Assembly (NCBI GenBank): GCA_001630475.1 | Contig: KV419403.1 | Span: 371,387-435,386, forward strand | Length of the DNA: 64,000 nucleotides | Reading direction: 5' to 3' | From: Sistotremastrum niveocremeum HHB9708 | Taxonomy: Eukaryota > Basidiomycota > Agaricomycetes > Sistotremastrales > Sistotremastraceae | Shown here: positions 5,876 through 64,000 of the stretch, in pieces | Layout: each line of letters opens with the position of its first letter | Position numbering within the stretch: the first letter of the stretch is position 1 | Translations under genes and position numbers: made by a program | Notes under the pieces: model-generated | Databases searched by the model: none | Told to the model about the DNA's origin: nothing | The model's input: the letters and a program-made list of their open reading frames with translations, nothing else

Positions 5876-5882
5876 TTTGTAG
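5876..5882 (+). repeat. right target-site duplication of the transposon
   Basis: TTTGTAG directly follows the right inverted end and matches the left copy at 2299-2305. Confidence 0.75.
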
Positions 5883-40480: not shown

Positions 40481-42529
40481 CTACAGTCTTGCGACTATCA
40501 AACCCTCGGACGGTGCCTTCGCCGCCCGATCTCTTAAGAATTTCCTCAGGATCTTGCCTGATGCGCTCTTCGGAATACTGTCAAGAAATTCGACCCCGCC
40601 TGTGAGTCGTTTGTAGCTCGCGAGGTGTTTAGCAACCCAGGCCTCGATTGAAGCTGCAGTCACTTCTGGGCTGGATCTCACCACATATGCCCTGGGATGC
40701 TCTCCGCCATATCTATCTCTGTTCAAAAAGTCAGTCATGGTTTGGCTAAGACGAATGCCGAGCTCACCGAGGCACACCGATGACTGCAGCATCTGCAACT
40801 CCCGGATTCAGGAGCAACGTTGCTTCCAATTCCGCGGGTGCTACTTGGAAGCCTTTGACCTTTAAATCTGGATTTCAGGAACCGCTAAGATCGAACGAGA
40901 TGCGCGAACGTACCTTGATCATTTCCTGCTTTCGCCTCAGTGACGTATATCAAGATAAACGATGCAAGGCTCACTTTCTTCCGGTCCACGATAAAGAACA
41001 TGCCCCGGTGGTCCATCCTGCCGATGTCTCCCGTCTTCAGCCATCCATCGGGCGTGATCGTATCCCTCGTGGCCTTCTCGTTCTTCCAATACCCTTTGAA
41101 CACAAACGGCGCCCTCAGCCATATTTCTCCTGGTTCTCCCTGTTGCACTTCCTTCTCATCTTCGTCAACGATCATAGCTTCGACTCCAGGCATCAGCTGG
41201 CCGACAGCGAGTCTTCCCGTTTCTTCATCCCAATCATCATAATCGAATAAAGTAGCCACGCAAGCAGCTTCGCTCAATCCCCATGCTTGAGACACCCTCA
41301 CTTTTCCCGAACCATCTGGATCGAGGACCCTCTCGACTGCTAAAGCAACTTCGGAGCCTAGCGGTGCGGCTGCACTGCCGATGCATCTGAGGGAAGTCAA
41401 GTCATGGTTTTTCACCAGGGGTGATTTGGCCAAGAGCACAGCGATGGGAGGAACGATGTGAATATCGGTCACACGATTCCTCTGGATAGCATCGAGGATG
41501 GTCGGGAAAGTGAAATCTTCGACGATGTGGGTCAGATGTCCCGATCGGGTGTTGTTAATGACCGCTCCAAACATGCCAGCTAAGAGGGAGAGATTCAACC
41601 CAACGCCTTAGCTCGAGAGTTAACGACACATACCCACATGGAAAAATGGTAGGAAGGCTAAGTAAACTCGTGGAGGATGACTCTTGTCGCGCTTTCTTCT
41701 CTCGAGATGAGGTTTGTCGCGAACAGAGATGAAGGACGCGCTCTCAGAGACCATATTCCAATGGGTGAGTTCGCAACCCTTTGAAAGTCCCGTTGTGCCA
41801 GAACTGTACGCCAAGGCGGCAGTACTATGGGAGGATCAGTATCAGACACATGGTGGGAGACCTAGGTGGAGACATACGTAGTCGTAACTTCCCGGAATTT
41901 TGTGAGCTTGCGCCAGTCACGACCCTCAAAATCAAGAAGATCCTCTATTCCTCGGAGATCCCCTCGAGATCCATCTATGAGAAATATATGCTCTTTCGGA
42001 ATGGACAACTTCGTGGCACATGCCAAGACGACTTGCAAGGTGGCGGACGACGCAAAGATAACTTTGGCACCCGAGTCTCTCAGCTGGTGCAACAGCTCTA
42101 GGTCGGAGTTCAGGAAGATGCAAGCTTGCAAGAAAGGAATATGGCACACCATATTCGCCGTAAGTAGGATTAGCACCCGTGAAAATTGCGCCCGCGGCTA
42201 TCGTGCCATACAGTACTGCTGGATACAGCAGGTGATTAGGCGACGCACAAAGGACTACATCGCCGGCCTTCACTCCTGCCAATTCTTGTAGTCCGTGCCC
42301 GATATTCAAAGTGAGTTCACGAAGCCCATTGGCAGTCAGAAATTTCTTCGGATTTGCCGCGCTAACAAAGAGTGGCTTTGATCGATCATATGGATACGTC
42401 TCGTCCTCTACAACAACAAGTTAGCGCGCGCCAGCGATATTCAAGATTGATAGATGTCTCACCGAACACCCAGGTCAGAAGATCGACGGTGGGAAAATTT
42501 ATCCTTGGTCGAGGTGATTGTATAGGCAT
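40481..42529 (-). CDS. 4-coumarate/acyl-CoA ligase-like enzyme 2
   Basis: Second member of the array, converging on ligase 1. MPIQSPRPRINFPTVDLLTW starts at 42529. It has the P-loop YSSGTTGLSKGC, SQAWGLSEAACVAT, GWLKTGDIGRMDHRG, the DRKK hinge and PKSASGKILRK with the catalytic lysine. It ends ARL, a PTS1-type tail for peroxisome import. Segments follow in the same order as in ligases 5 and 6 and each ends at a splice donor. No stop or frameshift seen. Closest in sequence to ligase 5. Confidence 0.9.
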
Positions 42530-43328
42530 CGAATCTCAAACGTTAACTTGGTCCAACGGTCGACGCCGTCGATGTTCGAGTTTCGCTAGGCCGCATATTT
42601 CTTCATTCACATCCATATGTACCAGCATATGAGGGCGCATGACCTCAAGCTGATAGGGGCTGAGATGCCACCTCGGTCAACCCCTGGGCCGACATGTGCA
42701 GTGGGAGAAGAGAACCGATAAGAATTGCATCATTTCGAACCAATGGCAGTGCTAGTATGCTTCTCACTTCCATGATGAGGATACCCTAGCGTGGATGAGC
42801 TCAAGGTGGTCGACTTGGTACGAATGAGCGTTGTCGACGCCGTCGAGGAGGTTGAACGGAATCGGCACCTCCCGCGAGTCACTTTCGCGAGGCTCAAATT
42901 TATTTATGTTCACTATGGAAGTTATCGGTCCAGGCGGTCCTACTCAAGATTTTAGTTGCAGATCTTCTGCTTCCTGAATCGAACGCTCAAATGGCTTTCG
43001 AAAGTGCCAGCGCTCAAACAATGGGGCGGCAAAGGCTGCAAAAGCAATTCATTCACTTTGGGCACCATCATTCGGAGCCCCGTCGCAGTCCACGCATATG
43101 CATGCCCTGTGGGACCCTGTCAGTAGCAGAAGCTCGATTGATGTCAGACGAATCCATCGCCATCAGATGGGCATACTGGATAGCACGTTCTTTACGGCAT
43201 CGAGAGTAGAAGAATATATGAATGCACCGGTATACCCTGATTGCCATCGTCCAATGATCATTGTCAGTCGTATAGATATAGATTGATACTCCGATCACCT
43301 TCAAAGCCCAAGAACTTGAATATGACTC
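42530..43328. other. intergenic between ligases 2 and 3
   Basis: Promoter of ligase 2 and 3' flank of ligase 3. No independent gene recognised; open frames at 42991-43304 on both strands overlap and look like chance. Confidence 0.4.
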
Positions 43329-45385
43329 TTAAATCCTTGACATCAGTGTGAGCTCTGTTCTAGATTCGGCGGCCCGATCCCTCAAATTCCGCCTTACAAC
43401 CTTGCCCATGCCGTTTTTCGGAACGACGTCGACGAATTCGATCCCTCCGGTGAGGTGCTTGTAATGAGTGAGGTGTCTTGCCATCCAGGCGTGAATAGAA
43501 GCTGCTGTGAGTTCCGGATTAGATTTCACTATGTACGCCCTTGGATCTTCGCCACCATAATTATCGTTTGCATTACTATCTCAGAAATTAGCAAGAATAG
43601 CAATGAAACCAATGCATGGCGCACCCGGGTACGCCGATGACTCCTGCATCCGCCACGTGTGGATGGGAGAGTAGAATCGCCTCAAGCTCTGCGGGTGCCA
43701 CTGGAACGCCTAGGAGGTGGAAGTTCAGCTTTCGACTATCGGTGATGTCGGATTGGATACGTACCGCGTACCTTAAGCATTTCCTGACAAGCACTGAGCA
43801 ACTAATTTCGAGGTAATGCTCAAACAATTCACCTTCTTTCGGTCCGTGATATAGAAAAATCCGCGATGATCTGTCTTGCCAATATCCCCGGTCTTGAACC
43901 ATCCATCAAGCGTGATCGTCTCCCTCGTCGCGTTCTCATTCTTCCAATAACCTTTGAATACAAATGGCGCTCTCAGCCATATTTCGCCATGCTTGCCCTG
44001 CACTACCTCACTTCCTTCCTCGTCGACAATCTTGGCTTCAACGCTGGCTAATAATGGGCCGACCGCTAGTCTTCCCGTCTGATCGTCCCAATCGCCATGA
44101 TCGAATGCCGCAGCTATCCCGAACTCAGTCAAGCCCCAGGATTGGCACAGCTTGAGGTTTTTTGAACCGTCGGGGTCAAGAACCTGCTCTACGGCTAATG
44201 CGACTTCTGAGCCTAAAGGAGCTCCAATACAAACAACCTGTTTGACGGATACCAAGTTGAAGTTCTTCACAAAAGGGGATTTAACCAAGAGAACGGCAAT
44301 GGAAGGAGTAATAAGGAGGTGGTTGATCTGAAATCTTGGAATGGCGTTGAGGACGTCACGGAGCGATGGTGGTTCAAAAATGTAAGTCAGATGTCCCAGA
44401 CGAGCGCTGTTGATCATATACAAATAGATCCCGACTGGAAAAAGCATCTCATTAGCTTCGACTTTTAACATGAAAGGTAGATTTGCATACGTCCGCGAAA
44501 CAGAGAGATATGGGTCAGGACAACAGGCTCGATGTACGGCTGTTCCGGACGGGATTCTCGTGCGGACTTTTGATAGCTACTGTGGATGAAAGAAACGCTG
44601 TGAGATACCATATTCCAGTGTGTCATTTCGCAGCCTTTTGGAAACCCGGTCGTGCCAGAGCTGTACGTCAGAACGCCAGAGCTGAAGAACCGTTAACTCG
44701 ACGCCCGATTTATTGCAAGAAATCGAAACTGACGTAGTCACTACCTCTCGGAAGGTAGTAAGTCTCTGCCAATCCTTTCCTTCAAAATTAAGTAGGTCTT
44801 CTATTCCTCGGATTCCATCCTTAGGACCGTCTATGAGGAAAATATGGGACCTCGGAACAGATAATTCCGCAGCGCACGTTCGAACAACTGATAAAGTTGC
44901 AGCTGATGCAAAGATGACTTTGGCGCCACAGTCTTGGAGTTGGCGTGACAGCTCTAAAACGTGGATGAAGACGTGGTTTAGACGCCAGGTGGAAAAGACG
45001 AACCGAATGCAGTGTAAGTGGGATCGGCGCCCGAGAAAATGGCACCAGCGCAGATCGTACCAAAAACCACTGCTGGATATAGCAAGTGATTTGGAGAGGA
45101 ACAAAGCGCTACATCGCCAGGCTTTACTCCCACCAATTCTCGCAATCCATGTCCAATCTTCATAGTGACATCCCGGAGTCCATTCCCTGTAAGGTACCTG
45201 CTTGGGTCCAAGGCGCTAACAAAGAGAGGTATTGATCGGTCATATTGATAGGTCTCGTCATCTGTAACGATGCCGGTCAGCGATAACTCGAACAAAATCT
45301 TATCTCGGGACTGTTTACCGAAAATCCACGTCAGGATGTCAATTGTGGGGAAATTAACCGGTGGACGAGGTGACTGGATTGGCAT
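43329..45385 (-). CDS. 4-coumarate/acyl-CoA ligase-like enzyme 3
   Basis: Starts MPIQSPRPPVNFPTIDILTW. P-loop YSSGTTGFPKGC, SWGLTEFGIAAAFDHGDWD, GWFKTGDIG and DRKK are present. Differences from the group: the region after the P-loop is shorter and has lost the usual LAFLPFFH segment (reads VVLTHISLF), and the C-terminal motif is PKNGMGKVVRRNLRD in place of PKSASGKILRK, though the catalytic lysine remains. The last residues SRI are a weak PTS1. It pairs with ligase 4 (46701), with which it shares these changes and an upstream flank, so the two arose by tandem duplication. Changed substrate or activity is likely (inference). Confidence 0.87.
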
Positions 45386-45547
45386 TGGATAGCGATGTAA
45401 TCAAGGACTGATGTTCGCAGTGTAGAAGTGGCATTGCAAGCCATAGCGTTCGGTTCGCATTCTTATGTATAGCCAACAGAATTAGCAAATCATGATTGAG
45501 CTGCGTGTCCCTCCTGTTGATAGGAACAACATGTCTTCCATTTTATT

Positions 45548-46163
45548 GGGGGGGCGAAGCCCCCCCGTATAATCTGTGATGGGGCTCTGAATTCACAGCT
45601 AAGCGAGCGACCCGATTCCCACGTCACGCTCGGTACTCGGTCAGCTGTGTCCGAGCTTTCCCACGTCACGCTCGCTCGCTTAACGTGCGCTGTCGGACTG
45701 CGAAAACCAGTGCCTCAGGCTGCTCGAATCTGTGGCGGAAAATGGCTACCGCTTCCTTCTTTTGGGTAATTTAACGCGTAGATGTATAGTATGAGTGTAC
45801 TTAGCTTTTTGTATGAGGTATTGACTCACAAAACCACTGTTAAATACCTGATGGATGCTGAAAACCAGTCTACAGTGAATAAAACTGAAATTTAGGTTGG
45901 AGGCGGACTTAGGCACTGATGCCAAGGTTCCAGTCTGAAACCAGCCTACACTGTCGCTAAAAACTCTAGAAAACGTTAAGGAAAGCTTCGACTACCGTGC
46001 AGAAATTCACAAGGTATTGTTGGCTCTTGCTCCCTTGCATTGTCAAGAGTAAAATTGAATAAAATAACAACAAGGCTGGAATTCTCGATATACACAGATG
46101 AATGCTGTAGTCATGTCTCACGCATGTAACAATGTGAACAGTTCAGATTTACTTCGCCCCCCC
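45548..46163. mobile_element. probable small inserted element with GGGGGGGCGAAG ends
   Basis: GGGGGGGCGAAG at 45548-45559 is matched by its reverse complement CTTCGCCCCCCC at 46152-46163. The left end is itself a perfect hairpin (G7-CGAAG-C7). Inside are direct repeats of CCCACGTCACGCTCG and inverted AAGCGAGCGA/TCGCTCGCTT (45600-45680). The equivalent site upstream of ligase 4 lacks this DNA, as expected for an insertion. I could not find a target duplication, so the family is open; a non-autonomous DNA element or a Helitron-like end are possible. Confidence 0.4.
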
Positions 46164-46229
46164 GTAAATCTTGTGGCGTAGCCACGTCGATAAACATAAT
46201 TTACACGCGCGAGACTAAGAATCCAAATG

Positions 46230-46565
46230 CAGGCTGTTGAGACCTCATGCGGCGTAGCGCGTTGGGCAAGTGTCAGCGGCCTGAGAACAAAACTTCTCGG
46301 AATAATCCGAGTTCTGGGATAAACCCCCCACCAAGGCGCCGATTTCTTGTACGCCGCCCAGGTCACAAAAGCGGGCGTTCAGGCCTGTGAGAACACGGTC
46401 GAATTGAACTTGAAGTCGATGCGCAGGCTATGAATCGCTCCTGAGGCCCGAGAGCCTGCGTGCGGGCAGCCTGCCAAAGTGCCAATGAGACAGTGGCTCA
46501 ACTTGAACTGAGGGGACCTTCGACACGCATCAACTTCACTAAGCAGCCTGGTCAGGATTGAGAGC
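46230..46565 (+). repeat. duplicated intergenic unit, copy 1
   Basis: Shares long stretches with 49147-49215 and 49780-49960, such as TTCGGAATAATCCGAGTTC, GGCGCCGATTTCTTGTACGC and GTCGAATTGAACTTGAAGTC. Same orientation as copy 2, each lying upstream of a ligase gene. Confidence 0.75.
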
Positions 46566-46700
46566 ATATCTGAAATTGAAGCAGTGATTCCTCCGTACTG
46601 CGAAGTTCAGGCAGCGACTTGTGAAATCACGCCTCTGATACATTGTATTGATTGTTGGTGGGTTAATTATAATCCCATTCACAGACAGCGAATACGATTC

Positions 46701-48774
46701 TCAAGTCCTCGACATCACTGGGGCGTTTGCTCTGGATTCGGCGGCCCAATCCTGCAAACTCCTCCTCATAACTTTCCCAAATGTATTCCTAGGAATGACA
46801 TCAACGAACTCGATGCCTCCGGAGAGACTCTTGTGCGGTGCAAGGTGCTTTGCCATCCAGGCATCGATTGAAGCTGCCGTGGCATCTGGATTGGATTTTA
46901 CGATGTATGCCCTGGGATATTCGCCACCGGCCTCGTTGCCGTCTCTATCACTGCCTCACAAGTGTTAGCCATGTAAGAGATGGAGCCAAAGCAGGGCACA
47001 CCAGGGCACACCGACGACCCCTGCATCCGCCACGTCCGGACTGGAGAGTAAGGTTGCTTCAAGCTCAGCAGGCGCAACTTGAAGGCCTAGAAAAAGGACG
47101 CTTGTCATCTGAGCATCACTGATGTATGTAGAACTGAGCACGTACCGTGCACTTTAATCATTTCCTAGAAGCAGTGAGCATTTAATCCTGAGATATGAGT
47201 TGGACAATTCACCTTCATCCGGTCTACGATGTAGAAAAATCCACGATGGCCCACCCTACCAATATCCCCGGTCTTCAACCACCCATCAGGTGTGAGCGTC
47301 TCCCGCGTAGCCTCATCGTTCTTCCAATAACCCTTGAACACGAATGGTGCCCTCAGCCATATTTCCCCTAGTTCACCTAGTACCACCTCCGCTTCTTCGC
47401 CATCTACAATCTTAGCTTCTATGCCAGACAACAACGGGCCGACTGCCAATCTTTGGGTCTCTTCGTCCCAATCACCATGATCAAACGCAGTAGCTATAGT
47501 AGTTATCTCGGTCAAGCCCCAGGCTTGACATAACTTGAGCTTCTTCGAACCATCGGGATCGAGAGCCTCCTCTACCGCCAACGCTACGTCCGAACCCAAA
47601 GGCGAGCCACCGCAAAGGAGCTGCGTGACGCTTGACAGGTTGTAATCTTTTACGATTGTGGATTTAGCCAAGGGCACCGCGATGGATGGGAATATAATCA
47701 ACTCATTGATCCGGAATCTCTGAATGGCGTCCAGAATGGCAGAGAAGTCTTGTGGATCGAGTATGTAGGTCAGGCGTCCCGATCGAGTTCCATTGATCAT
47801 CGACACAAAAATGCTAACTGACACAAATTTAATCAACCTCAACCAGAAAATTGCCAAGAAAATGTACACACCTGCGCGGAACAATGGGAAATAGACGAGG
47901 GTGATGGGGTCAGCGTCCTCTGTTTCCGGATTGAATGTCTGTGTAGAGCTTTGATGACGTCTGCAGAGAAAGGAAATGCCGTGGGACACAGCATTCCAGT
48001 GTGTAACTTCGCAGCCTTTCGGAAGTCCAGAAGTGCCAGAGCTATATGTCAGAAAAGCGGTGCTGTGTAACAGTTAAGCTAAACATCCAACGCAGTAATT
48101 GACCCGAGACTGACGTAGATGATACCTCTTGGAAGGTAGTGAGCCTAGGCCAATTTTGGCCTTCGAAATTAAGCAGGTCTTCTACGCCCCGAAATCCATC
48201 TCTTGCGCCATCTATGAGGAAGATATGGACAGTTGAAATGGACAGTCGCGCGGCACACATCGAAACGACGGATAAAGTCGCAGCAGATGCAAAGATGACT
48301 TTGGCACCAGAGGATTGGAGTTGGCGTGACAACTCTGGAATAGATATTGAGTGAAGCTTTTATAATTTTGTCGCAAATGCAGTAGTACAGACCAAATTCA
48401 GTGTGACTGGGATCGGCGCCTGTGAAAATGGCGCTGGCGCAGAGGGTGCCGAAAACCACTGCCGGATACAGCAAATGGTTGGGAGATGCACACAGTACCA
48501 CATCTCCGGGCTTCACGCCTGCCAATTCCCGTAAGCCATGCCCAATTTTCATGGTCAGTTCCTTGAGGTAATTTTTTGTGAGATACTCCTCCGGGTTTGA
48601 GGCGTTAACAAAGAGAGGTTTCGAGCGATCATATGTGGACGTTTCGTCATCTGCGACGAGGATACTAGTCAGAGATATTCGAAGGTCTCATAACATGATT
48701 GTTTTACCAAAGATCCACGTCAGGATATCAATAGTAGGGAAGTTGATCGTCGGACGAGGCGATTGGATTGGCAT
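46701..48774 (-). CDS. 4-coumarate/acyl-CoA ligase-like enzyme 4
   Basis: Starts MPIQSPRPTINFPTIDILTW. P-loop YSSGTSGLPKGC (Thr to Ser change at a position that tolerates it), CQAWGLTEITTIATAFDHGDWD, GWLKTGDIG, and hinge DRMK in place of DRKK. The C-terminal motif is PRNTFGKVMRRSLQD, with lysine kept. The protein ends SRT, which is not a good PTS1, unlike its relatives. The LAFLPFFH segment after the P-loop reads LVYFPLFRAG. The frame is open through the expected exons. Sister of ligase 3; both seem to be drifting away from the canonical motifs. Confidence 0.86.
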
Positions 48775-49146
48775 CAACAAGGAGTAATAATGCTAGATCA
48801 ATGACCGATGTTGACAGTACGGAAGCTTGCAGAAGCCAATTCGCAATCCATAGCAGTCGATTCCCAGCTCTATGTATAGCTAGCCAGCTCATGTCACTAT
48901 TCGGTACTGAGATGGCGTCCCATTGACTTCCCAAGATAGCGGACTCGGAGTTTGAGACCAAGGTGGCGGCTGGTCGGAATTTCCTATCGCGCTATCATAG
49001 CTGCACCCACCACGGAAGGCCATTTCTGATGAATTCAGGGTTTTCCAAACGCCAGTGTCAACGCTTGTGAGCTTCAAATAGGCTTGACGAGTACAGGCCA
49101 TGCGTGAGTCAAGTGGTGGTGGTGGTACTACTGGCGCACTGGGTCA

Positions 49147-49960
49147 GCGGCCTGACAAACTCCTGACAACAAAACTTTTCGGAATAATCCGAGTTCCGAA
49201 GGCGCCGATTTCTTGTACGCCGCGCGCCAAGGGGCATGCATCGGCAAATGCCGAGACACAGGGTGGTCAGGGTCAGGGTTCCGGAGGGCCTTAAATATTT
49301 TTTTCGACATACTTTTTATATTAATCCACAGACCACATGAGGTTATATGCGACTCTAATGTATGTCTATAATGACTCTATGCTTGTCAAAAAGAGCTTTA
49401 AGAGCGACTGGTGGTTGCCGAGGCCAGCTGCCTCTGGTGGTGGTCACTTTGTCACGCGATGTCACGCCTGGGAGTCACAGTCACGGGGATGTCACTGCTT
49501 GTGACCCACACTCACGCTCTATAGGGAAAACACAACGCTGATGTTTCTTGACGATGAATACAGGTCCGAAAGCCTGCTGAGGCCCGTGGAAAATATTTTG
49601 AGGCCCTAAATTAATATATTTATTATTTTTCGGAGTTTAAACTTCAGGGTTCAGGTTCCAGGAGGCCTTATAGAAATTTTCCGACGTCATATCATAATTT
49701 TTTTTCCTGCATGCCCCTTGCCGCGCGCCGGGCCCAGGACAAAAACCGGAGGCAATGCTGTGGGAAAAAAAGGGGGTCGAATTGAACTTGAAGTCGAAGC
49801 TCAGGCTGTGGATCGTTCCTGAGGCCCGAGAGTCAGCGGGCAGCCTGCCAATGAATCAGTGACTCAGTGGTTCAACTCGAACTGAAGCGATATCGATTTC
49901 CAACACACATCCGAGTCAACCTCACTAAGCACCCTCAGGCTGATCAACTCGTTACAACCG
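49147..49960 (+). repeat. duplicated intergenic unit, copy 2, split by an insertion
   Basis: Matches 46230-46565 on both sides of the 493-bp miniature element. Copy 1 has no such element, which dates the insertion after the duplication. Confidence 0.7.
49228..49720. mobile_element. hAT-like miniature element (MITE), 493 bp
   Basis: Ends with CAAGGGGCATGCA (49228-49240) and its exact reverse complement TGCATGCCCCTTG (49708-49720). The 8-bp direct repeat CCGCGCGC flanks it at 49220-49227 and 49721-49728. Eight-base duplications and CA-GGGG-type ends are hallmarks of hAT elements. There is no transposase inside; the interior holds GTCACG-rich and AT-rich parts. Confidence 0.82.
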
Positions 49961-50412
49961 ACCATCTAGGTAAACAGATATAGACGGTATTTCGCAATTG
50001 CTATTTCGTTTTGGCTGGGGCATAACTATGTTCGAAGTAGGGCGTTTCTGCTTTCGTATTCCTTTCGGATATTCAAATTTCTGGGAATTTACTATTTTCT
50101 ACCCGATCTTTTTGTCCTAATCGGCTAGGTAGAGCCCGCCGGCTGTCCTACCGCCTTTCAGGAAACGGATCTGGCTAGCATTCCTCGAAAGCAAGATCCT
50201 CAAGATCCCAACTTGGATTCTTAGATATCGCGAATCAATACGGTGGTGATCTTTTCCTCAACAATATGGAAAATGGATCATCGGTTCTTGGAAATATAAC
50301 CCACAGTCAGCCAGGCAGGTGTTCGCTCCCAAACTTTGCTGTATATCTGTATTGTTACAAGCCTTACTATCACATTACATGGAAGTGGTGCCTCATGCGG
50401 TGCGAGGACCGC

Positions 50413-50996
50413 TTACTGAGCATTTGCAGGCTGCTTTGCAGCTTCTTTCGCCTGCTGCTCCGCCATTTCCTTGAAGAACTTGGCGGCGTATGCCGAGTCC
50501 ATGAATTCATTGATAATCTTGATCTTTGGCTCCGTAGCATCCTCCGTGAAGAAATACGTGAACATATATTCGTTGGTGTTTGGCAACCCGAACTTCGTTC
50601 GACCATCTACGGCGATCTATAGTGTTCAAATTCGAGAGTCAGTACTTTGGAGAGACCAAGGGTAGCATGCACTGTACGTGAAGTATAACCTTGTTGTCTC
50701 CCTCAGTCACATCCAAGATATCGAGCTGCATTTGAGATTAGAGACGATATGGTCATGTCTGCACCAAGCGGACTCACATCAAAACGTTCGAATGCTAGCA
50801 ACGCACTTGTGATACGGGCGCCCCATTCCGCTTTATCTGAAACAGGCCAACCCATTGACTTTGGGAAATAATAATGTTGGTAGCTGTCGTCGAGGAGCGC
50901 AATAATGCCGGCTGCGTCCAGCTTGCTGAACGCATCGACATATTTCAGTACGACGGATAGTTGAGCTGAAGGATTCGCGGGTGGTGTGTAGGGCAT
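50413..50996 (-). CDS. NTF2/SnoaL-like small protein
   Basis: A 152-residue protein with the NTF2-like (SnoaL) cone fold pattern; exons 50996-50778, 50725-50690 and 50616-50413, all in phase. The start MPYTPPANPSAQLSVVLKYVDAF matches a family common in mushrooms. The pattern of an N-terminal helix pair with LDAAGIIALLDDSYQHYYFP, then beta strands (VDGRTKFGLPNTNEYMFTYFF) and a C-terminal helix fits. Such proteins may be small isomerases, hydrolases or simple binding proteins; here the role is unknown. It lies within the ligase array, which raises the chance that it acts on the same metabolite (inference). Confidence 0.85.
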
Positions 50997-52065
50997 GACG
51001 GCTGATGGAGTCGCACGACTGGCACATATGAAAGGGTACGTCGCTATATAAGCATCCTATAATGCGGTCCGAATCAGCGCGCAAAAATTGGTGGCCTACA
51101 TCAGGAAACACCCCCCTGACGCTTGGAAGCGCTTTATAGCGCTGTGTATGAACTAGGGTACACGGGGTGGCTTTCCTGACGTAGCGCTCAACCTGAAATG
51201 AGCGAGAAGCTGTTTCAAAGTGTTTAGTATTTGTGAATGTGAGTTTAGTAGGATTTTAGATTTCCGAGTGAGGACAGAAAACGCGTAAAGGACAGGGGGT
51301 AGTTCAAAATCTCAGTGTGCGCGAGAACATCGGATCCGCACCGTGCGACGAATCGGAACGACTCGGAGGGTCGCAATACCATTTTCTGCATCAGCGATCC
51401 AGGATAGCGTTGACTAGCTAATCTTAGAAAGGTCCAGACTCTGCGGCCTTCCATAGCCGCCCAAAAAGTCTCGTTCCTAGATCCACTAGCGACGGTCGCG
51501 CGTTCTTGTTGTCTACATGCGTGTCGACAGAAAATCAACAAGCGCAAACAGTCTAGAGTGGTCGACCGTCCATAGACATATGCATGCATAGATGGTCATA
51601 GAAGACCCTGATCAGCTGATGTAGAGGACGATTGATGTAAAATCAAATCGAGGTCGAGGCAGAGTCCATCCTCCGTATCGGCTCTCTGCTCGTGGTGGTC
51701 AGATTCCGAGTCGCAGTGATCGTACGATAATGTTTACTGACAAACTTGGCAGCTAATTAGCTGCTAACTCTCTGGATGGCTCTATATCAGCGACATCTTA
51801 ACGTCTATTAGCGCTAATAATGCTAACTTGTACCTTTTTAGCATATTTCTAGCATTATCAGCACAAGATGACAGCTGGGAAGCCCTCGGCTCTCTGGATC
51901 AAGGAGGGTCGGATGAAAAAGACATCAAGAGCTGGAAACCGGTTGTATCGATCTCCCCCAGGGTTCAAATGTCATCATATCGCAAGGAGACTAGAATATA
52001 TGACAGGCTTCAATAATTGGGCTGCAAACCGGACAAGGCATGGATGCGAAGATCGGAGACGAGCA
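50997..52065. other. intergenic between NTF2-like gene and ligase 5
   Basis: NTF2-like promoter and 3' flank of ligase 5. Short AGCTAATTAGCTGCTAA-like inverted repeats occur around 51750-51830. The minus-strand frame 51245-51589 is unlike known proteins. Confidence 0.4.
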
Positions 52066-54120
52066 CTACAATCTTGAGACTGGTTTCTCGACTAAGCTTC
52101 CCTTAGAAGCTCGGTCTCGCAAAATCTGCCTCAAAATCTTGCCCGATGCACTCTTCGGAACAACATCAACGAATTCCACACCTCCTGTGAGTCGTTTATA
52201 GCTCGCAAGTCGACTTGCGACCCATGCCTCAAGCGAAGCTGCAGTCACTTCCGGACTAGCTTTCACTACGTACGCTCTTGGATGCTCTCCGCCATATTTA
52301 TATCTTTTCAAGAGATCAGTCCTGGTTACGATAAGACGAAGGCCGAGCTCACCGAGGGACACCGATGACTGCGGCGTCTGCAACTCCCGGATTGAGAAGC
52401 AAAGTTGCTTCAAGTTCCGCGGGTGCTACTTGGAAGCCTTTGACCTTTCAGATTGCTATTCAGAAACGTGGAGGTGCTCGCGTGGAATAATATTCGTATG
52501 CCAACCTTGATCATTTCCTAGGTATTTTTAAGCTACACATGACGGAGAACGCGGTGGAAAGCTTACCTTCTTCCGATCCATGATATAAAACATGCCGCGA
52601 TGATCGACCCTGCCAATGTCCCCCGTCTTCAGCCATCCATCAGGAGTGATCGTCTCTCGTGTTGCCTTCTCATTCTTCCAATATCCCTTGAAAACGAACG
52701 GAGCTCTTATCCAAATCTCGCCTTGCTCTCCATCTTTCACCTCCTTCTCATTGTCGTCAACAATCATAGCTTCAGCTCCAGAGATCAATGTCCCAACGGA
52801 AAGCCTCTTCGTCTCTTCGTCCCAATCGCCATAGTCAAAACCGGTGGCCACACCCGTCACTTCACTCATGCCCCATGCTTGAGCGACTTTCACGTTCCTT
52901 GCACCATCTGGGTCCACCACGTTCTCTACTGCTAAGGCAACTTCTGTACCCAGCGGGGCAGCACCAGAGACGATGGTTCTGAGTGAGCTCAAATCGTATT
53001 TTTTCACCAAAGGCGATTTGGCGAGGAGAACAGCGACGGGAGGGACGACGACGAGATCGGTGATCCGGAACTTTTGGATAGCATCGAGAAAGATGGGGAA
53101 CGTGAATTGCTCGACGATGTAAGTCAGATGTCCCTGGCGAGGATTGTTGATGACGAATCCAAGCATGCCAGCTAAAGTAGGATTATTCTCCCTTAGTCAC
53201 TTCAAAACTAATTATGCATATACATACCTACGTGGAAGAAGGGCATGTAGCCAAGGAAAACCTTGGGGGTATCCTCTTTCGGTGCAGTCAATTTCTTGAT
53301 AGGCGGATGATAGTGACTCGAGATGAATGACGCGCTTTGAGTGACAAAATTCCAATGCGTGATTTCGCAGCCTTTTGAGAGTCCTGTAGTGCCAGAACTG
53401 TATACCAAGGCGGCGATGCTATGCCTAAGTCAGCACGAGTGAAGTAGAAGAATGCAATCTCAGATACTTACGTCGATACGACTTCTCGAAACGTTGTCAG
53501 TCTAGGCCAATCACGCCCTTCATATTGAAGCAGCTCCTCTATCTCTCGGACTCCCCCGCCGGAACCATCGATGAGAAATATACGATCTCGTGGAATGCCC
53601 AATCTGGCAGCACACGTCAAGACGAGTGCTAAAGTGACAGTCGACGCAAAAACGACTGTGGCACCGGAGTCTCGCAGTTGGTGCAACAGCTCTAAGTTTT
53701 TGTTCAGGTATAGTCCAGCTTCTGAGAATGCAACCGCTTACCAGACTCGCCGTAAGTGGCATTGCAGCCCGTGAAGATAGCTCCTGCGCATATCGTCCCA
53801 TATACGACAACGGGATACAGGAGGTGATTTGGGGAAGCACAGAGTATCACATCGCCTGGCTTCACTCCGACCAACTCCCGCAATCCATGCCCAAGCTTCA
53901 TGGACATCTCGCGCAGTCCATGACCCGTTAGGTACCTCTTTGGATTCGAAGTACTAATGAACAGAGGCTTTGCTCGATCATATTGATACGTATCATCATC
54001 TGAGATATCGCACGTAAGTCGGTGATGAATAAATGGGTATCAGAGCATTTTACCGAAGATCCAAGTTAAGAGATCGATCGTCGGGACATTGAGACTGGGT
54101 CGAAGAGATTGAATCGGCAT
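52066..54120 (-). CDS. 4-coumarate/acyl-CoA ligase-like enzyme 5
   Basis: Canonical member: MPIQSLRPSLNVPTIDLLTW start, P-loop YSSGTTGLSKGC, LGYMPFFHVGM, AQAWGMSEVTGVATGFDYGDWD, GWLKTGDIGRVDHRG, DRKK hinge, VKGFQVAPAELEA, and PKSASGKILRQ with the catalytic lysine. It ends SRL, a strong PTS1 tail. No break seen across the exon segments. Together with ligase 2 it is the most conserved copy, so it is a good candidate for the ancestral activity. Confidence 0.92.
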
Positions 54121-54998
54121 CGACGATCAAAAACGCTGACGACGAAGAACTCAGGTCGAAGGGCCGTGTCGTTTGGTGCGCATATGTATGCATCCCATCA
54201 ATTGGCATGCTCGAATGAGTGCGTTCCGTGGTGATAAGAACCGAGCTGTCTTCTCAATGAAGTTCAAATGTTCAATCCTTCCCAGGCTGGGATGAGGGTG
54301 AAACGCTGGCTGATACGGGTGGGAGATCATGAAGGCAAAGCGCAAGCAGTCTTCCTAAGCGAGAAATCGACAGTACACTGACTCTACGCCAGGACATTAA
54401 GGTGAGCAGTCGAGCTTCTGGTATTATCGAGGTCGTCGTCTGCGTCAGTGAGCAAGCGGTATCGGAAACCGGACCCCTCGACTCACTCCCAGCCTCCATT
54501 CCAGCTCATCGAATTTGCACTCAACAGAACCCGAATCAAGATATGCCTGCACATGTTGATCTCGAGATTCAATTAAAGGAGCTGACAGGACAATGCACTA
54601 CATTCGATGGCTCGGAACAGGTTTCGTCGATCTCCCACTGGTCATGCTCCCTTTCTGACGACACCCATCTATAGCCAATGATTTTATGTTCTGTTTCTCT
54701 CTTCGCATGTGCAAGGACATCAAAGAAGCCTATGTCGTTGACGCAAACGGTGGTCACGCCACGCGTCAGGGGGCCAGGTCGACCAAGAAGCCTTGACGGC
54801 GTCTGCGGTAGAACGGATCTGATGTGATGTGAGGAGATATTTCAGTTCTTATCATATATGAGATCTTGCGGAAGGCGTATCTTTTATTTCACCCTTGAAG
54901 TAGTTCAGGCATCTGACTGGCAGCTCATCCAGTCGTTTTCACGGTCCCTTCGGACTCAAATATCGAACTGCGATTTACTGCTCAAAACTTGCACGCGA
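54121..54998. other. intergenic between divergent ligase 5 and desaturase
   Basis: Shared promoter region. No gene recognised; overlapping frames at 54402-54674 and 54569-54757 look like chance. Confidence 0.4.
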
Positions 54999-56401
54999 AT
55001 GCAGCGGTACGACATCCTCTTTGATTGGCCGAGACAACTCCATTTACCGGACATGGTTTCAAGAATGTTTGAAAATACAGTCGTGATCCCGTCGTACTGC
55101 TTCGAGCGGCGAGCTGTGAGGTCACTCCTCACTCTCAACTGCTACATTGTACTGTTTGTTAGTGGGTGGTGGGTCAATAACCTCTTTCTGACACGCTGTC
55201 TACTTACAGCAGCACTTTGATCATAGCTACGCCGCTATATGCATAGAGACTGCTTGTCGCCAAGACGCGGTCGTTGAATATTTATCGGATCCAGGAGTTT
55301 TCATTCTTCAATATCTCTGTTGGGCATCATAGTACGTTGTAAAGAATCTCAAAGCTGCTTGTCTGAACTATATATAGCTGGTATCTTCAGAGCTTGGTCT
55401 TCTGCGGATTCTGGGCACTTGGTCATCAATGCCTCCACAACACGTTCTCTTCCTCTCAGCGTGTGGACGATGTGATCGGCCTCATCCTTTCGACCTTCTT
55501 GGGGACACCATACTATCCTACACATATCCCTTCCGCGTTGTGTCTGGATGAGCAAGGGCATGCCGTTAAACCAGGATCGTTCGTTATTGCACCATCTCCT
55601 ATGTAGCTCCGGCCAACTAATCATGTCATACAGACTCGAACAAAACCTTCAGCATCTGGAACATTGCGATGATGCTACCGAATATTTACTCGGTCGAGTC
55701 ATATTCCAGCAGTTATCGGCGTACAATATCTTGCCATCTGGCCTCAAACTTGATTCAGACAAGTCGGGTCCGTTCAGACGCTACTTTCTTCGTGAGTTGC
55801 CATTGTCATAAGCTACGCTTAGCACCTTGATCTATTCCTCGTTTATAGGATCTCCGCGGGCTGTGAAGCCGCGCTACAATCTCGTAGTCTTTTCCGACCT
55901 TGGTCTTCTTGTATTCGGGAGTATGCTGGTCTACCTCTCGAACACATACGGCATTATGGATGTTATGAACTATTAGTACGTGCTCCGATCTATCTTAGAA
56001 TCCCCGAATGTGCTTCTTATCAGATATGTTTCAGCGGTATTCCTTGGATCGGATACAATTATCGGCTCATAGTTCTCACCGACCTTCGATACTCGCATAC
56101 GTCGCCGGATGATTTCGCTCCCGAGGCAAGGTCTCGAAATGTGATGGGCGAGGGGTTTACCAAACTCGACTCAGCCCACTGTCACATCGTCCACCATCTC
56201 TTTCCCCACATTCCTTGGTATAACTTGGAGGAAGCAATGCAACATCTCAGGGATGCCATCGACAGGATGCAGGTTGATTCTAACGAATCAACATCCGGAT
56301 TGGCATCTCCTGCATCGACGTTATCTCGATGGGCTGACGACGACGGAGAACTGATCTTCTATCGGAACTCCCATTTAGCGCTCAAGCGTGCTGAGTCCTG
56401 A
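54999..56401 (+). CDS. Delta12-type fatty acid desaturase relative with altered histidine boxes
   Basis: Membrane di-iron desaturase family, normally adding a double bond to C18 acyl chains. The frame starts MQRYDILFDWPRQLHLPDM; VVIPSYCFERRAVRSL is the conserved entry segment. Box 1 reads GHQCLH (HxxxH kept, usual HECGH changed). Box 2, normally SHxxHH, appears only as RSLLHH, with the first histidine missing in the splicing I favour. The QHTHP region reads RYSHTSP. Box 3 HCHIVHHLFPHIPWY (HxxHH) is intact. FSDLGLLVFGSMLVYLS is a membrane helix. Exons near 54999-55146, 55202-55330, 55381-~55530, ~55568-55790, 55850-55978 and ~56028-56401. Either a paralogue with a new reaction (acetylenase or hydroxylase types share this fold) or a gene losing function. 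Confidence 0.65.
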
Positions 56402-56577
56402 AGGCCTGAAGAGAACCCGACCAGACATGGAGTAATGGTGGCTCATTAATGCGACCATTCTCGCTTCGTTATGTGATTGGATAATGGATTCGAGGGGCGA
56501 AACAATGCTTGACAGCGGACAGACGTACACGACCTCGAATATTCTGTCACCTACATGACACGGGAATAGACAATCCT

Positions 56578-58628
56578 TTACAATCTTGCGACGCTCTTGG
56601 ATGCTCTGGGACTGCTCTTCAAAGCTCGCTCCCTCAGAATTCTCCTCAAAATCTTCCCTGAAGCGCTCTTCGGGATCTCATCAACGAATTCGACTCCGCC
56701 AGTCAGACGTTTGTAAGGACTGAGACGATCCGCGATCCACGCCTCAACCGAAGCTGCCGTAACGTTTGGTCGAGCCCTTACAACGTACGCCTTGGGTTCT
56801 TCGCCACCATCAGTAACACTATCGGCAATGAGTAAGTTTCATGAAATAGGGCAATAGCTTTGCATACCGAGGGACACCAATGACTGCAGCATCTGCAACG
56901 TCTGGATTGAGGAGAAGCGCTGCCTCGAGCTCCGCGGGTGCTACTTGGAAACCTTTGACCTGACAAGTTGTTCAGCTACCGCTCATTATACGCCCAGCGA
57001 TGACGGACTTTGATCAATTCCTGAAGACAATGAGCTCTAACGATATCCGAATTGATCATAGGATCTTACCTTCTTGCGCTCAACAATGTAGAACATGCCC
57101 CGATCGTCGATCCTCGCAATATCACCAGTCTTCGTCCACCCCTCAGGCGTAATCGTATTCCTAGTAGCTTTCTCGTTCCTCCAATATCCCTTAAACACAA
57201 ACGGTCCACGCAACCACAATTCGCCCGCCTCTCCCTCCTTCACCTCCCTCGCATCATCATCCACAATCATCGCCTCCAAACCAGCTGCCAAATGTCCAAC
57301 AGCAAGCCTTCCAGTCCGCTCATCCCAATCACCACGATCGAATATCGTGCCTCCACAAGTGACCTCGCTCATACCCCATCCTTGATGCAATTTGACGTTC
57401 TTTGCTCCGCTCGATTCGAGGACCTTCTCAACTGCCAAAGCGAGCTCTGTTCCTAGCGGGGCTGCACCGCATAGGATATTGGATAGGGAGGAGATATTGT
57501 AGTCTTTGACGATAGGTGACTTTGCGAGGAGGACTGCAACCGGAGGGGCCATGACGAGATCGGTGATACGATGTCGGTCAATGGCTTGGAGAATGCCAGG
57601 AAATGTGAATTGTTCAACGATATAAGTCAGACGCCCCATGCGAGCGTTGTTCATAACGAAGTAAGTCAAGCCAACTTGAAGTAAGTGTCAGAAATCGACT
57701 GCCAATTAAGAGGGTACAGAGATTGCATGCTTACAGGCATGGAAGAATGGCAGGAATGCGAGATAAATAGGCTCAGGGAATTTCCTGTTCGGATATCTCC
57801 TTTCTGCGGAGACCTTGTCCAGGATCGAAATGGTAGATACGCTGTGTGTGACCAAGTTCCAATGCGTGATCTCACAGCCTTTGGATAATCCGGTTGTACC
57901 AGAACTATATAGCAAGACTGCCGTTCTGAGCAAATGTGAGCGCCTAGTCAATAAACTGAGATTAGAATGGCAACGTACGTAGAAGAAAGCTTTTGATAGT
58001 CCGTTATTTTCTGCCAGTCTTGACCTTGATTCCTGAGTAGATCCTGAATACCACGTACACCATCCTTCGGCCCGTCCAGTAAGAAGATGTGCTCTTTTGT
58101 AATATTTAACTTTGCAGTGCATGCCAGGACGACAGGCAAAGTTACGGCCGACGCAAAGATCACTCTTGCGCCTGAATCTCTCAGTTGATGTAGCAGCTCT
58201 GGCGCGTATGTGAGAAGGAGCGCTAGTCCTGAAGTGAGGGTACTCACCAAATTCCGTGTAGGTCGGGTTAGAACCTGTAAAGATGGCGCCCGCACAAATG
58301 CTTCCCAAAACAGCAGCAGGATACAGGAGATGGTTTGGAGAGGCACAGAGCACTACCTCGCCTGCCTTTACTCCTGCCAGTTCTCGAAGACCTCGTCCTA
58401 TCTTCCTTGTGAGGTATAGTAACTGATTTCCTGTGATGTGCTGCGTTGGGTCCGTGACGCTGATGTAGAGGGGCTCTTCGCGGTCGTACGTATACGTATT
58501 GTCATCTAGACATGTTATCTATTAGCTGCCTAAAGTAAAATGTATGCAAAAGGGAGCTCACTGAAGATCCATGACAGGATGTCGATTGCAGGAAAGCTAG
58601 GTGTCGGACGAGGCGAGTTAATGGGCAT
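56578..58628 (-). CDS. 4-coumarate/acyl-CoA ligase-like enzyme 6
   Basis: Starts MPINSPRPTPSFPAIDILSW. P-loop YSSGTTGLSKGC, LAFLPFFHA, HQGWGMSEVTCGGTIFDRGDWD, GWTKTGDIARIDDRG, hinge ERKK, and PKSASGKILRRILRE with catalytic lysine. Ends ARL, a PTS1-type tail. The stop is at 56578-56580, about 180 bp past the stop of the desaturase gene on the other strand, so the two converge. No interruption found. Confidence 0.9.
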
Positions 58629-61190
58629 TCTGAGCAGTTCAAGCTCGGTGTTGGAACAAGATGAAAATCCAGTAGAGGAGCTGTCTCGTGACGAGGGTAG
58701 TTATGCTATACGCTTAACAGAGTGAGACATCGCCGCCTAGCAAAAGGGGTAGCAGTGACTATAGGACCCCTGGGCCGTCTAGATTGAGCTTAGCAGTTGT
58801 ACAATTGTCGTGCCATGATCGTTCTGAACCTCAGGGGCGAAAATGAGGCAGGCGCCGATGTCTTGAACTGGTATCTGCCATGTTGGACGCCAAAGAATAA
58901 GCAGGTTTGATCTCTGTCTCTTTTCCTCTGCCACGATAAGTCGAGTTAATGGCCCAAGAAGTAGCGGGGCATTGGAGTGACGGTCACCGCAGATAAGCTC
59001 CGTATGGCCGTGAGAACCGACGGTTCGGCGGTTTCCGGGTGGACACTGTCACGTGAAAGAAGCCCTCGAAAGTCGTTCCAGTTGAACCGACTGCATCGGT
59101 GTGCACTCAAGGGGTTTTCAGAACCTTAAATCCGTACCCTGGGCCAGGGTGTGTGTGTGGGTCTCGGGCCCTTCCACACGTAAGTGCCCACCCATAATTA
59201 AATATTTATATTAATTTTTCAATAATTATATACAAGTTCCGGAGTGCTCCAGTATATATTGGAAGCCTCAAAAATGTGTTTGGGCCTCTGCAACAGCTAA
59301 AAATCATACAATATAGCAGTATCTAGGGTCTGAGGCTTGTATATGACTAAAAAAATCAATATATTAATTGATTTTATATATACATTGGTGTAAACTACTC
59401 ATAGAAATATCCTCTGTATAACCTCCTGGGTCTTTGATAACTGGGTGTACGCAAGCTGAGTTCAAAACCACAGCTGAAAAAGGATCCCCGGGTGTCGGAA
59501 ATATCCCGGAAGCGTCCAAAAATGGAAATAATCTCGGAGATAACGGATTTAAGAGGTGTGTGTGTGTGTCTCGAGGCCTTCCCCGCGTAAGGTGACGTAC
59601 GTTCCGTGTTTGCGATTCCGAAAACCCCTTGTGTGCACTCCTTCTTCTCGGGGCCTCTGCTTTTCAATCTTCTCAGGAGTGGACGGCGGACACCTATCGG
59701 TATGGACGAATTCTGATTTTAGTTCAGATTCTTACGTCGTCATAGCCTGAGGAATCAGGATTAATCAGGACACGAGACTACTGTGTCGTCGGTATTGACC
59801 TGCAACAATGCTTGCTCTGATCGACAGACGGTTCTTCATCGGCCCGAATAAGCCTACATAGAGCTCTTCGTGCCACGAAACGTATCATGAAAAAAGATGA
59901 ATTCAAACGCGTCATCTCAACTATCTGGATGCTGAACTTGGGCTATGCTTTTCCAGATCGATGAATCTGAAAAATGCAGTACCATGGAGCGATTGAATAT
60001 CTGAGAGGCTATACACGGATCATAGACATCAGCTTCAACCCTTGACACCATTGCGCCGATAACTTCGATGAGGAGCACACAAGTCGCCAACGCCACACGA
60101 CAGGCGAGCTTGGTCGTGTATTGCACCTGTGTTGGCGTCTGTAATTTCTAAAACACGAAGCACGTCAAGGGTGGACTGGATCAGCCAATCATCATTGCCA
60201 GATATCTCGCGAGCTCCTGACTCTCTAGTGCGACGATCGGGTGTAACTTGCTGAAATTCTCCACGGCTGTAATCCCTCAGTTTATTTCATGGACATGCGT
60301 CATTATTCCTGCCAAGTATTCTGCACGATCAATCTATCGCACATCAAAGCTTGACGTATGGGGCCCCGTATGGGCGGTGACCGATGTGGTCCATATTCAT
60401 CCATAGCATGTGGTCTCTACAACTCTCTGATCAAATATTGGCATTTCTTCGATGCGATATGTTACTCTCCGGGCAGTCCTGACTCTCGAACCGGCACATA
60501 TCCCGCCACTTCATCAGTATTGGCTAATGCTTCATGGCCATGGAAAAAAATCCATACAAACATCAGAAAGGACAACCTATGATGCCGTTCCGCCACGTTC
60601 TCCATCTAATTCGGCTGCAAAATCGACGTCGGTATTCAATATCCTGAAAGAAGTGATAGAAGACCCGGCCATCTTGCTCCAGCTCCACTCTAGTTGAGTC
60701 GCTCTAGTACCGAACCATTTGATAGATATTTACTCTCATCATATTTGAAGCTTCGAAAGATTTCGACCGCGTTGGAGAGCTATGATTGGATTGCGAAAAT
60801 AGGTTGTGTTGTGAGTCGGGGGGCCGCGGCATATGCTTCGAGGCGGGTACACCTGATAGGAGGCAGTTGGAGCTTCGTGATTTATACTAACTCTGTCACG
60901 TTGATCAAGGAGGACGTAATTTTGCGGCCCCAATTAAACTCGAGGTGAGCGATCCGAGCGTCGAGCAGGTTGATGAAGGGGCTATTTCGGGGCCGAATCG
61001 TCACCTTCGTGGGCACCAATATTATCTTGGCTATGTGCTGCTCCGCTTCCTACCATTCAAAGAAGACAAACCAAAGTGTTGTAGCCCAAAATGATCGAAT
61101 AACCTTGATGCTCCAAACAACGCCCATATTAGCGCCCATCGCATCGTTTCGAACTCCGCGCTTCACCACTGCCGCTCGCGTCTACTTGTG
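58629..61190. other. long intergenic region with a miniature element and unassigned ORFs
   Basis: Upstream of ligase 6 lies a miniature element (59108-59631). A plus-strand frame 60452-60697 ends in a helical segment SVFNILKEVIEDPAILLQL but has no clear family. A minus-strand frame 60126-59917 begins with a signal-peptide-like MQYTTKLACRVALATCVLL; I could not extend it convincingly. Confidence 0.4.
59108..59631. mobile_element. hAT-like miniature element (MITE), 524 bp
   Basis: Inverted ends CAAGGGGTTTTC (59108-59119) and GAAAACCCCTTG (59620-59631), extended by imperfect matches. The 8-bp direct repeat TGTGCACT flanks it at 59100-59107 and 59632-59639. The first seven bases CAAGGGG equal those of the element at 49228, so both may be moved by one related transposase. 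Inside, GTGTGTGTGGGTCTCGGGCC at about 59150 and a variant near 59560 repeat. No coding sequence. Confidence 0.85.
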
Positions 61191-61197
61191 TATAAAT
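61191..61197 (+). promoter_or_regulatory. TATA box of the repeat-peptide precursor
   Basis: TATAAAT lies 64 bp before the ATG at 61255, in the usual position for a fungal TATA box. Confidence 0.6.
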
Positions 61198-61254
61198 ATT
61201 CGTCGATGTTCCTCTCGATGAAGTAGGATCCAATCCACTATCACTTGACATATC

Positions 61255-61823
61255 ATGTTCTCCAAGTCTTTCGCCGTTGTTGCTTTCTTCGCTACTTTGG
61301 TCGTTGCGAGCCCTGTCGCTAACCCCGAGACTGGTGCTAAGCCTGACTTGCAAGGTATCATTTTTATCTCAGTCGGTTCCAGGTTGACCAATCTGACGCT
61401 CTTTCCTTAGCGCGCCAGTGGGGATGGCCCTTGCACTCAGATGTAGCCGAAGAGACTGCGGAACCTCAGCTCAAAGGTTCGCGGTGCGATGTTCAGTGCA
61501 TCGAGATCATCACTAACTTTTCTGCAGCACGTCAGTGGGGATGGCCTCTTCACAGCGATATCAGCGATGAAGCTGAGAAATCCAAGCTTAAAGGTGTTTC
61601 TATGAATAATTTCTCATGATTGACCCCGACTGATTTCCGACTTAGCTCGTCAGTGGGGATGGCCCTTGCATTCTGACACCACTGAAGAAGAAGCAGCTAA
61701 ATTGAAAGGTATGGGTTTCTCTTTCTTACTCGAAACTCAACATTAAATTTGAGTTTAGCGCGTCAATGGGGATGGCCTCTCCACAGCGACGTCGAGGAGA
61801 CTGGAGATGAGTCCAAATATTAA
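61255..61823 (+). CDS. secreted precursor with four exon-encoded ARQWGWPLHSD repeats
   Basis: A 119-residue precursor from five exons: 61255-61354, 61411-61476, 61528-61593, 61646-61708 and 61759-61823. Exon 1 encodes a signal peptide (MFSKSFAVVAFFATLVVA) and a short pro-region. Each of exons 2-5 encodes one copy of ARQWGWPLHSD followed by an acidic spacer; exons 2-4 end in LK. All four introns are phase 1 at the same place in the repeat, so the gene grew by exon duplication. The layout (leader, short pro-region, repeated peptide split by acidic spacers and basic residues) resembles yeast alpha-factor-like and Kex2-processed repeat precursors. The basic site is LKAR, not KR, so cleavage may follow K or R. 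The likely mature peptide is QWGWPLHSD, perhaps with pyroglutamate. Function unknown; no CaaX motif. Confidence 0.85.
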
Positions 61824-63255: not shown

Positions 63256-64000
63256 TCAGTCATTAATACTAGTAATTTGATACTTGAACCACGGATGCCG
63301 TACGACGTCTTGCATCGTAATCCTTTGTTTAGGATTAATCTTCAACATCTTTAACAACAAAGCCTCCAAGAGGTCGATCTCCCCCGGATCAATACGTGTA
63401 CCGGCTTCGGCAGCTATAGACCCAAAGTCGGGGCCAACAGGATCGTCGTGCAACCCAACCTGGACCAATCTCTGACGAATTGTGCACATTGAAGCCGGAG
63501 CATACAATGCCGCAATTTCCTGCTCGGATTTTGGGTATTTCCTTAACCACATACTCCACCAGGGCTCAGGAAGCTTCCCCAGGGTATGAACAATGTCCTC
63601 GAGGATTGCATCGTCGCTCGGAAAATACGATTGAAACAGAGGCTTCGTAGTGCGCAGCTCGAAAAGCACACATCCCAGACTCCATACGTCTGAAGCCAAG
63701 CCGGTCGTCGAGCAAAGAAGGTTCTCTGGCGAGGCATATGCCATAGGTATAGGGGGGTAATAGTCCGACGGTAGTGGATCTTTTGCCTCCAAAGCAACGC
63801 CAAAATCAATCAGCAAAATACTTTCTGTCAAGAAAGAGTGAGAACAGAAGCTAGAGGCCGGCACAGGGGCGACAAGTTCTTTTGGAGCGTAGGACAATAG
63901 AAGGCGATTTAGCTGAAGTTTGAGCTTCTCCACATCAGGATCCCCGAACACTTCGTAGATTTTGTGAGGCGACAATTAGGTCTTAGGTATTTGAAGCAGA
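63256..64000 (-). CDS. SRPK-like serine/threonine kinase, C-terminal part
   Basis: The gene continues past the window edge; this is its 3' part. IDFGVALEAKDP includes the DFG-type metal-binding motif; YASPENLL is the activation-segment end (APE region, here SPE), SDVWSLGCVLFEL is helix F, and KINPKQRITMQDVVRHPWFKYQ closes the kinase domain. This order is that of fungal SR-protein-kinase-like proteins, large lineage-specific families in mushrooms. An intron near 63830 (FLTESIL) probably joins the upstream exon. The homologous C-terminus in the truncated neighbour at 62374 points to a tandem duplication. Confidence 0.8.

Follow-up and report, generated by a model that had tools for sequence, protein, structure and literature searches.

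A 64,000-nucleotide stretch of contig KV419403.1 of Sistotremastrum niveocremeum HHB9708 (hereafter the window) carries at 61255-61823, on the forward strand, a gene model of five exons read from the sequence, whose predicted 119-residue product we interpret as a secreted precursor of short peptides with a recognisable processing logic, at a probability of about 0.82. We regard the gene as a member of a small gene family and not as a one-off. The secreted multi-copy peptide precursor proposed for this locus in the initial annotation is supported by paralogs, by relatives outside this genome, by selection at the codon level and by the processing signals, and the exon-per-repeat architecture proposed with it was recovered in full, with five exons and four identical cores, one on each phase-1 exon.

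The ATG lies at 61255 and the TAA stop ends at 61823. Exon 1 (61255-61354), which ends in phase 1, encodes a putative signal peptide MFSKSFAVVAFFATLVVA, recognised by inspection, and the pro region SPVANPETGAKPDLQ without any core, and each of exons 2-5 contributes one copy of the core QWGWPLHSD, all on the forward strand. Exon 2 (61411-61476) reads [A]R-QWGWPLHSD-VAEETAEPQLK, with core copy 1 at 61416-61442 directly behind LQAR. In the following exons LKAR directly precedes the core: exon 3 (61528-61593) reads [A]R-QWGWPLHSD-ISDEAEKSKLK with copy 2 at 61533-61559, exon 4 (61646-61708) reads [A]R-QWGWPLHSD-TTEEEAAKLK with copy 3 at 61651-61677, and exon 5 (61759-61823) reads [A]R-QWGWPLHSD-VEETGDESKY, followed by the stop, with copy 4 at 61764-61790. 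The spacers, initially described as acidic, do hold three to four D/E each, but one to three lysines each as well. Introns 1-4 span 61355-61410 (56 nt), 61477-61527 (51 nt, without an in-frame stop), 61594-61645 (52 nt) and 61709-61758 (50 nt); all four are of the GT..AG type, within 50-56 nt, and split a codon after its first base. Their lengths modulo 3 are 2, 0, 1 and 2, and since three of the four are not multiples of three, the four units can be read as one protein only after the predicted splicing. The donor of intron 2 (GTTCGC) looks weak, and a motif scan of the introns did not find the CTRAY branch motif in intron 4. A TATA-box-like TATAAATA was noticed by eye at 61191-61198 (forward strand), 57-64 nt upstream of the ATG; similar boxes, also found by eye, stand about 51-56 nt and 80-87 nt upstream of the ATG in the two paralogs described below, L009 and L010, respectively.

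The genome searched comprises 34.7 Mb in 111 contigs, and a pattern search over its whole length returned 14 QWGWP-coding sites, 12 of which fall into three clusters, all on contig C10, which carries the window; the two others (C13, C15) are single sites with no repeat around either. The two paralogs on C10 are L009 (275.9-276.5 kb, minus strand, five exons with five copies of QWGWPYHAVERD) and L010 (293.9-294.4 kb, plus strand, four exons with four copies of QWGWPWHNTD, one of which has WS for WP and one NA for NT), so that copy number differs among the three genes (four in the window gene, five in L009, four in L010). Searching the genome with the L009 protein retrieved only the three C10 loci (nine matches) and no other cluster. 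With a pattern that allowed two mismatches, 63 places matched compared with 29 for the reversed control, 13 of them known copies; the remaining 50 still exceed the control, and no repeat surrounds the three of these that were inspected (two with one mismatch, one on C10). A junction pattern matched 24 places compared with 18 for its control, eight of them known copies, with no clustering among the remaining 16. Within the window, a scan for amino-acid 5-mers repeated at least three times within 1.5 kb found this gene as the sole cluster on the forward strand, which, together with the QWGWP clusters at three places in the genome, argues against a chance repeat. Pfam matches of the three precursors all scored under the curated cut-offs and were taken as chance.

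Outside this genome, two relatives were found in a large protein collection, P0001 and P0002, both of them exon-1 fragments. P0001, recovered among the best 8000 candidates by shared words, has the core QWGWPHHNTD behind a perfect X-Ala/X-Pro ladder, and both relatives were recovered among 211 candidates; with the window protein alone as query, none of 63 candidates matched at E <= 10. Exon 1 of the window gene aligns with exon 1 of the paralogs and of P0001, and a lysine at position 4, a hydrophobic stretch and a [VA]VA/[SG]P site were seen by inspection at the N-terminus of five sequences. P0002 differs from the L009 exon-1 frame at four of 61 residues, and its exon 1 ends in LEG where that of L009 ends in LKG, suggesting that the lysine of the cut site may be dispensable.

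The strongest evidence for a mature peptide is that two unrelated signals appear to mark the same N-terminal glutamine. The residues before the core are LKAR in ten of the 13 copies, LQAR in one and VADP in two, and all of them end at Q. No arginine stands before the core in the first copy of L009, L010 and P0001; here a ladder leads from the likely signal-peptide site to Q, in which 8 of 8 (L009), 10 of 10 (L010) and 8 of 8 (P0001) dipeptides end in A or P, as against A or P at 1 of 8, 2 of 10 and 1 of 8 of the other dipeptide positions. The two additional dipeptides in the L010 ladder keep the register, and the composition-preserving probabilities of the ladders are 7e-4 (L009), 4e-4 (L010) and 7e-4 (P0001), for sequences that are related and not independent. 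Ladders of X-Ala and X-Pro are substrates of STE13-type dipeptidyl aminopeptidases. In the window gene the ladder (61309-61353, forward strand) is decayed: 6 of 8 dipeptides end in A or P if the count extends to the Ala of QAR. The first copy of this gene follows LQAR. As in L009, L010 and P0001, the ladder comes after the predicted signal peptide rather than after a KEX2 site.

These signals suggest a route of maturation in which signal peptidase would take off the first 18 residues and a single-arginine endoprotease, for instance a kexin, would cut at L-[KQ]-A-R ahead of each Gln, while in the paralogs the first copy would be freed by a STE13-type dipeptidyl aminopeptidase working down the ladder until it reaches this residue. 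Once exposed, the glutamine would form pyroglutamate, and removal of the acidic tail by carboxypeptidases would leave about QWGWPLHSD(V). Yeast Kex2 cuts poorly with Ala at P2, which makes the identity of the cutting enzyme uncertain. Domain searches of the genome located kexin P-domains at two places and a single gene for a PF00930 dipeptidyl peptidase, the translation of which has a hydrophobic, anchor-like stretch before the catalytic part. The latter gene (C10:333429-335000, L029-L032) shares its contig with all three precursors, at about 39 kb from L010 and about 98 kb from the window gene; this may be coincidence. Cutting of KEPs (KEX2-processed repeat proteins) after a single Arg was reported for Pichia expression, and STE13-like trimming of other KEPs for Pichia expression and Pleurotus (Vogt et al., PMC9769878). 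By analogy with Coprinopsis cinerea, in which pyro-Q KEP peptides were detected (PMC9769878), an N-terminal pyroglutamate is expected here too. The C-terminus is less certain than the N-terminus; an Arg follows VE in L009 and NTD in P0001, which suggests a mature peptide of approximately ten residues. Likely products are thus pyroglutamyl, Trp-rich peptides of about this length, and the three genes would release three variants that differ at core positions 6, 8 and 9. At positions 6-8 the variants are L-HS, Y-HA and W-HN in this genome and H-HN in P0001. In the gene models each intron splits the Ala codon of A-R as G/CN, and the internal exons are symmetric (phase 1-1), complete cassettes, so that skipping or adding an exon would keep the frame and restore the cut site.

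Synonymous sites of the cores are close to saturated (pS within genes 0.87, 0.93 and 0.96 for the three genes), yet the core amino acids hardly change, which argues that the peptide sequence is kept by selection and that the exon copies look old, their likeness not stemming from recent duplication. Compared with unit 1, the other cores of the window gene differ at 6, 3 and 8 of 27 bases while the protein is identical, and their serine codons include both classes. No amino-acid difference from unit 1 was found in the three comparisons of the window gene or in the four of L009, and two were found in L010, in two of three comparisons. With base changes equal in number but placed at random, 11.8 (window gene), 18.7 (L009) and 9.2 (L010) amino-acid changes would be expected, and none of 20000 simulations for each gene went down to the observed counts of 0, 0 and 2. 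With the last units left out, spacer pN is 0.384 in the window gene, 0.179 in L009 and 0.057 in L010; the nominal core pN of 0.093 (window gene) and 0.020 (L009) results from path counting between codons of one amino acid and has no amino-acid change behind it. The expectation that repeats change more slowly than spacers, examined here for repeats within genes and for paralogs of one genome, is accordingly confirmed in the window gene and L009, while L010 does not discriminate, its spacers being about as conserved as its cores (core pN 0.043). Across the 13 copies Q1, W2, G3, W4 and H7 are invariant and P5 has one exception; at positions 6 and 8 each gene has its own constant residue, and with position 9 these sites make up the gene-specific differences. 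As for the proposal that copy number changes by exon duplication, the number does vary among the paralogs (4/5/4), but the apparent age of the exon copies speaks against recent change.

Like KEPs (Le Marquer 2019; Umemura 2020; Vogt 2022), the family has a putative signal peptide, at least three near-identical short cores and a basic cut site; some basidiomycete KEPs also have Gln-started cores and STE13-like ladders. The published surveys define KEPs by at least three repeats of 8-100 aa bounded by KR/KK/RK/RR (Umemura, PMC7329392) or at least three similar fragments with KR/RR/KK between them (Le Marquer, PMC6339444); for C. cinerea only, Vogt et al. also used a repeat search for which no cut-site filter is stated (PMC9769878). 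With 4, 5 and 4 units the three genes reach the repeat number of both surveys, but none of KR, RR, KK and RK occurs anywhere in the three proteins. They are therefore not KEPs by survey definition, and neither pipeline would report them, whatever genomes were included; Kex2 processing, with which the layout was compared at the outset, is not supported in its strict dibasic sense. Further differences from KEPs are that the cut site L-[KQ]-A-R is split by an intron, that each exon holds one core, and that in the paralogs nothing but the ladder separates the predicted signal peptide from the first core. The C. cinerea KEP 490115 (cores QMRPPSW and QYKAPSW) likewise has a Gln-started core, which in Pichia expression was freed by STE13-like trimming, partly as pyro-Q (PMC9769878), whereas its sites are RR and its core ends in Trp and lacks QWGWP. 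In our view the family works like a KEP, being a monobasic, exon-modular variant rather than a strict member. Literature searches, which left most subscription papers and supplements outside, gave no match to QWGWP, WGWPLH, WGWPYH or WGWPWH, and papers with the string WGWP, among the matches listed, look unrelated by title and the start of the abstract; 'Kex2-processed repeat' together with 'exon' was not found within the same limits on access. These searches turned up no published account of the family, whose general kind is already known.

Among other explanations, we consider it unlikely, although worth weighing, that the genes encode dikaritin-type RiPPs, the cores of which would be cross-linked oxidatively by UstYa-family enzymes before release to give a cyclic, possibly bioactive peptide. 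Such a product is possible for L009. It neighbours an AMP-binding (ANL) enzyme gene and two UstYa genes at 1.4-2.8 kb (the nearest UstYa open frame at 1.4 kb), and one But2-like gene, whose Pfam score falls just short of the cut-off, lies in between. The L009 core includes a Tyr, and ustiloxin-type peptides are cyclised at this residue (PMC7329392). The But2-like gene and the divergent UstYa pair occupy 4868-7480 of the L009 region. Yet this pair provides the only UstYa matches on C10: there are none in the window, L010 is about 15 kb away, and Tyr is not found in the cores of the window gene, L010 or P0001. In the 7.5 kb inspected at a divergent UstYa pair on C36, whose neighbour gene shows weak similarity (E 0.007), no repeat precursor was seen, nor was one in two other UstYa regions inspected; because these three regions lack a repeat precursor in the 5-mer scan, the proximity of UstYa is a lead for L009 only and not a test. 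In the Umemura survey 103 of 1680 Basidiomycota KEPs (6.1%) sit with DUF3328 genes, and Tyr in 65.6% of the repeats near such genes is a tendency (PMC7329392); background on UstYa in mushrooms is given in PMC8893723 and PMC12409109. The genome is rich in this family, with 53 exon-level UstYa matches on 15 contigs including C36, C7, C4, C33 and C52, and a trio like that of But2-like and UstYa genes beside L009 may also exist at L033 (C36), with a third gene that bears a weak resemblance. That the product is a structural or surface-active repeat protein similar to Rep1/repellent, whose fragments would coat hyphae and not signal, appears quite improbable to us. Short repeats with two conserved Trp would suit it, and Ustilago maydis Rep1, which derives from a KEP, is an example (PMC6339444), but Rep1 is reported in that survey without a STE13 signature (PMC6339444). 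The cores, moreover, vary little or not at all inside one gene (two single-residue exceptions in L010) and are gene-specific at positions 6, 8 and 9, a pattern more in keeping with specific recognition than with bulk coating.

We find it very unlikely that the peptides are alpha-type sexual pheromones in the ascomycete sense. The family shares with alpha-factor type precursors the putative signal peptide, the X-Ala/X-Pro ladder and multiple secreted cores, and the W-x-W close to the start of the core is reminiscent of yeast alpha-factor. The core is nevertheless a different one, the ladder is perfect only before the first copy, and the three proteins do not match the alpha-factor Pfam families PF04648 and PF05436. 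The genome returned no STE2 match, in a search whose control was silent too, and its 25 exon-level STE3 matches are all on C13 and C35, with homeobox matches on C14 and C69 and neither kind on C10, a distribution in keeping with a basidiomycete. A CaaX pheromone was also considered and rejected: basidiomycete pheromones of this type end in CaaX and have no signal peptide, and the window protein ends in DESKY after an N-terminal hydrophobic leader. An artefact or pseudogene, i.e. a chance repeat without a real spliced gene, we judge scarcely credible: the apparently weak donor of intron 2 would allow for it, but purifying selection acts at the codon level in all three genes and exon 1 is conserved in other sequences.

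Further genes lie beside the precursors. The AMP-binding (ANL) enzyme gene at 56623-58629 (minus strand) is the one nearest to the window gene, and any action on the peptide is hypothetical. Among the relatives that the ANL gene beside L009 has in this genome, it scores highest, and the relative orientation of enzyme and precursor differs between the two pairs. At E <= 1e-20 all ten matches of the L009 ANL piece, itself included, are on C10, for which reason the closeness of ANL genes to two precursors may be only local duplication. The gene at 56623-58629 belongs to an array of at least six related ANL gene pieces (38870-58629), which we take to be 4-coumarate-CoA-ligase-like, and further ANL loci stand at 490 and 540 kb on C10. 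A protein-kinase piece (63259-63975) lies beside the window gene and a helicase piece downstream of it, L009 and L010 have a transposase piece between them, and the four open frames scanned around L010 gave one Pfam match over the cut-off (ADIP). Elsewhere in the window, one 505-aa frame (17642-19156, minus strand) contains four Zn(2)-Cys(6) cluster stretches, to our knowledge an unusual number, and the long open frames at 2506-5556 (minus strand) presumably belong to a KDZ/Kyakuja-type transposase.

For the secreted precursor that we favour, the most likely role judging from its architecture is that of an extracellular peptide signal or a biotic-interaction peptide, to which we would give slightly less than an even chance; six KEP knockouts of C. 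cinerea without a detected phenotype (PMC9769878) caution that a signalling role is not assured. More tentatively, and with the odds in our view against it, we speculate that the family represents a new class of basidiomycete peptide signals, with protease sites completed by splicing, a dose tuned by gain, loss or skipping of exons, and gene-specific variants kept uniform within each gene through selection and not gene conversion. If this were true, the class, being monobasic, would have escaped the pipelines of the two published KEP surveys, and it may occur widely. Because monobasic cutting and STE13 trimming are both predicted to yield the same N-terminus, the family offers a clean test of the two activities in basidiomycetes, and its gene-specific cores are candidates for receptor or target searches. 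Should the processing model hold, surveys requiring dibasic sites would undercount fungal repeat-peptide precursors, and other exon-per-repeat genes with [x]-A-R before Gln may be findable elsewhere.
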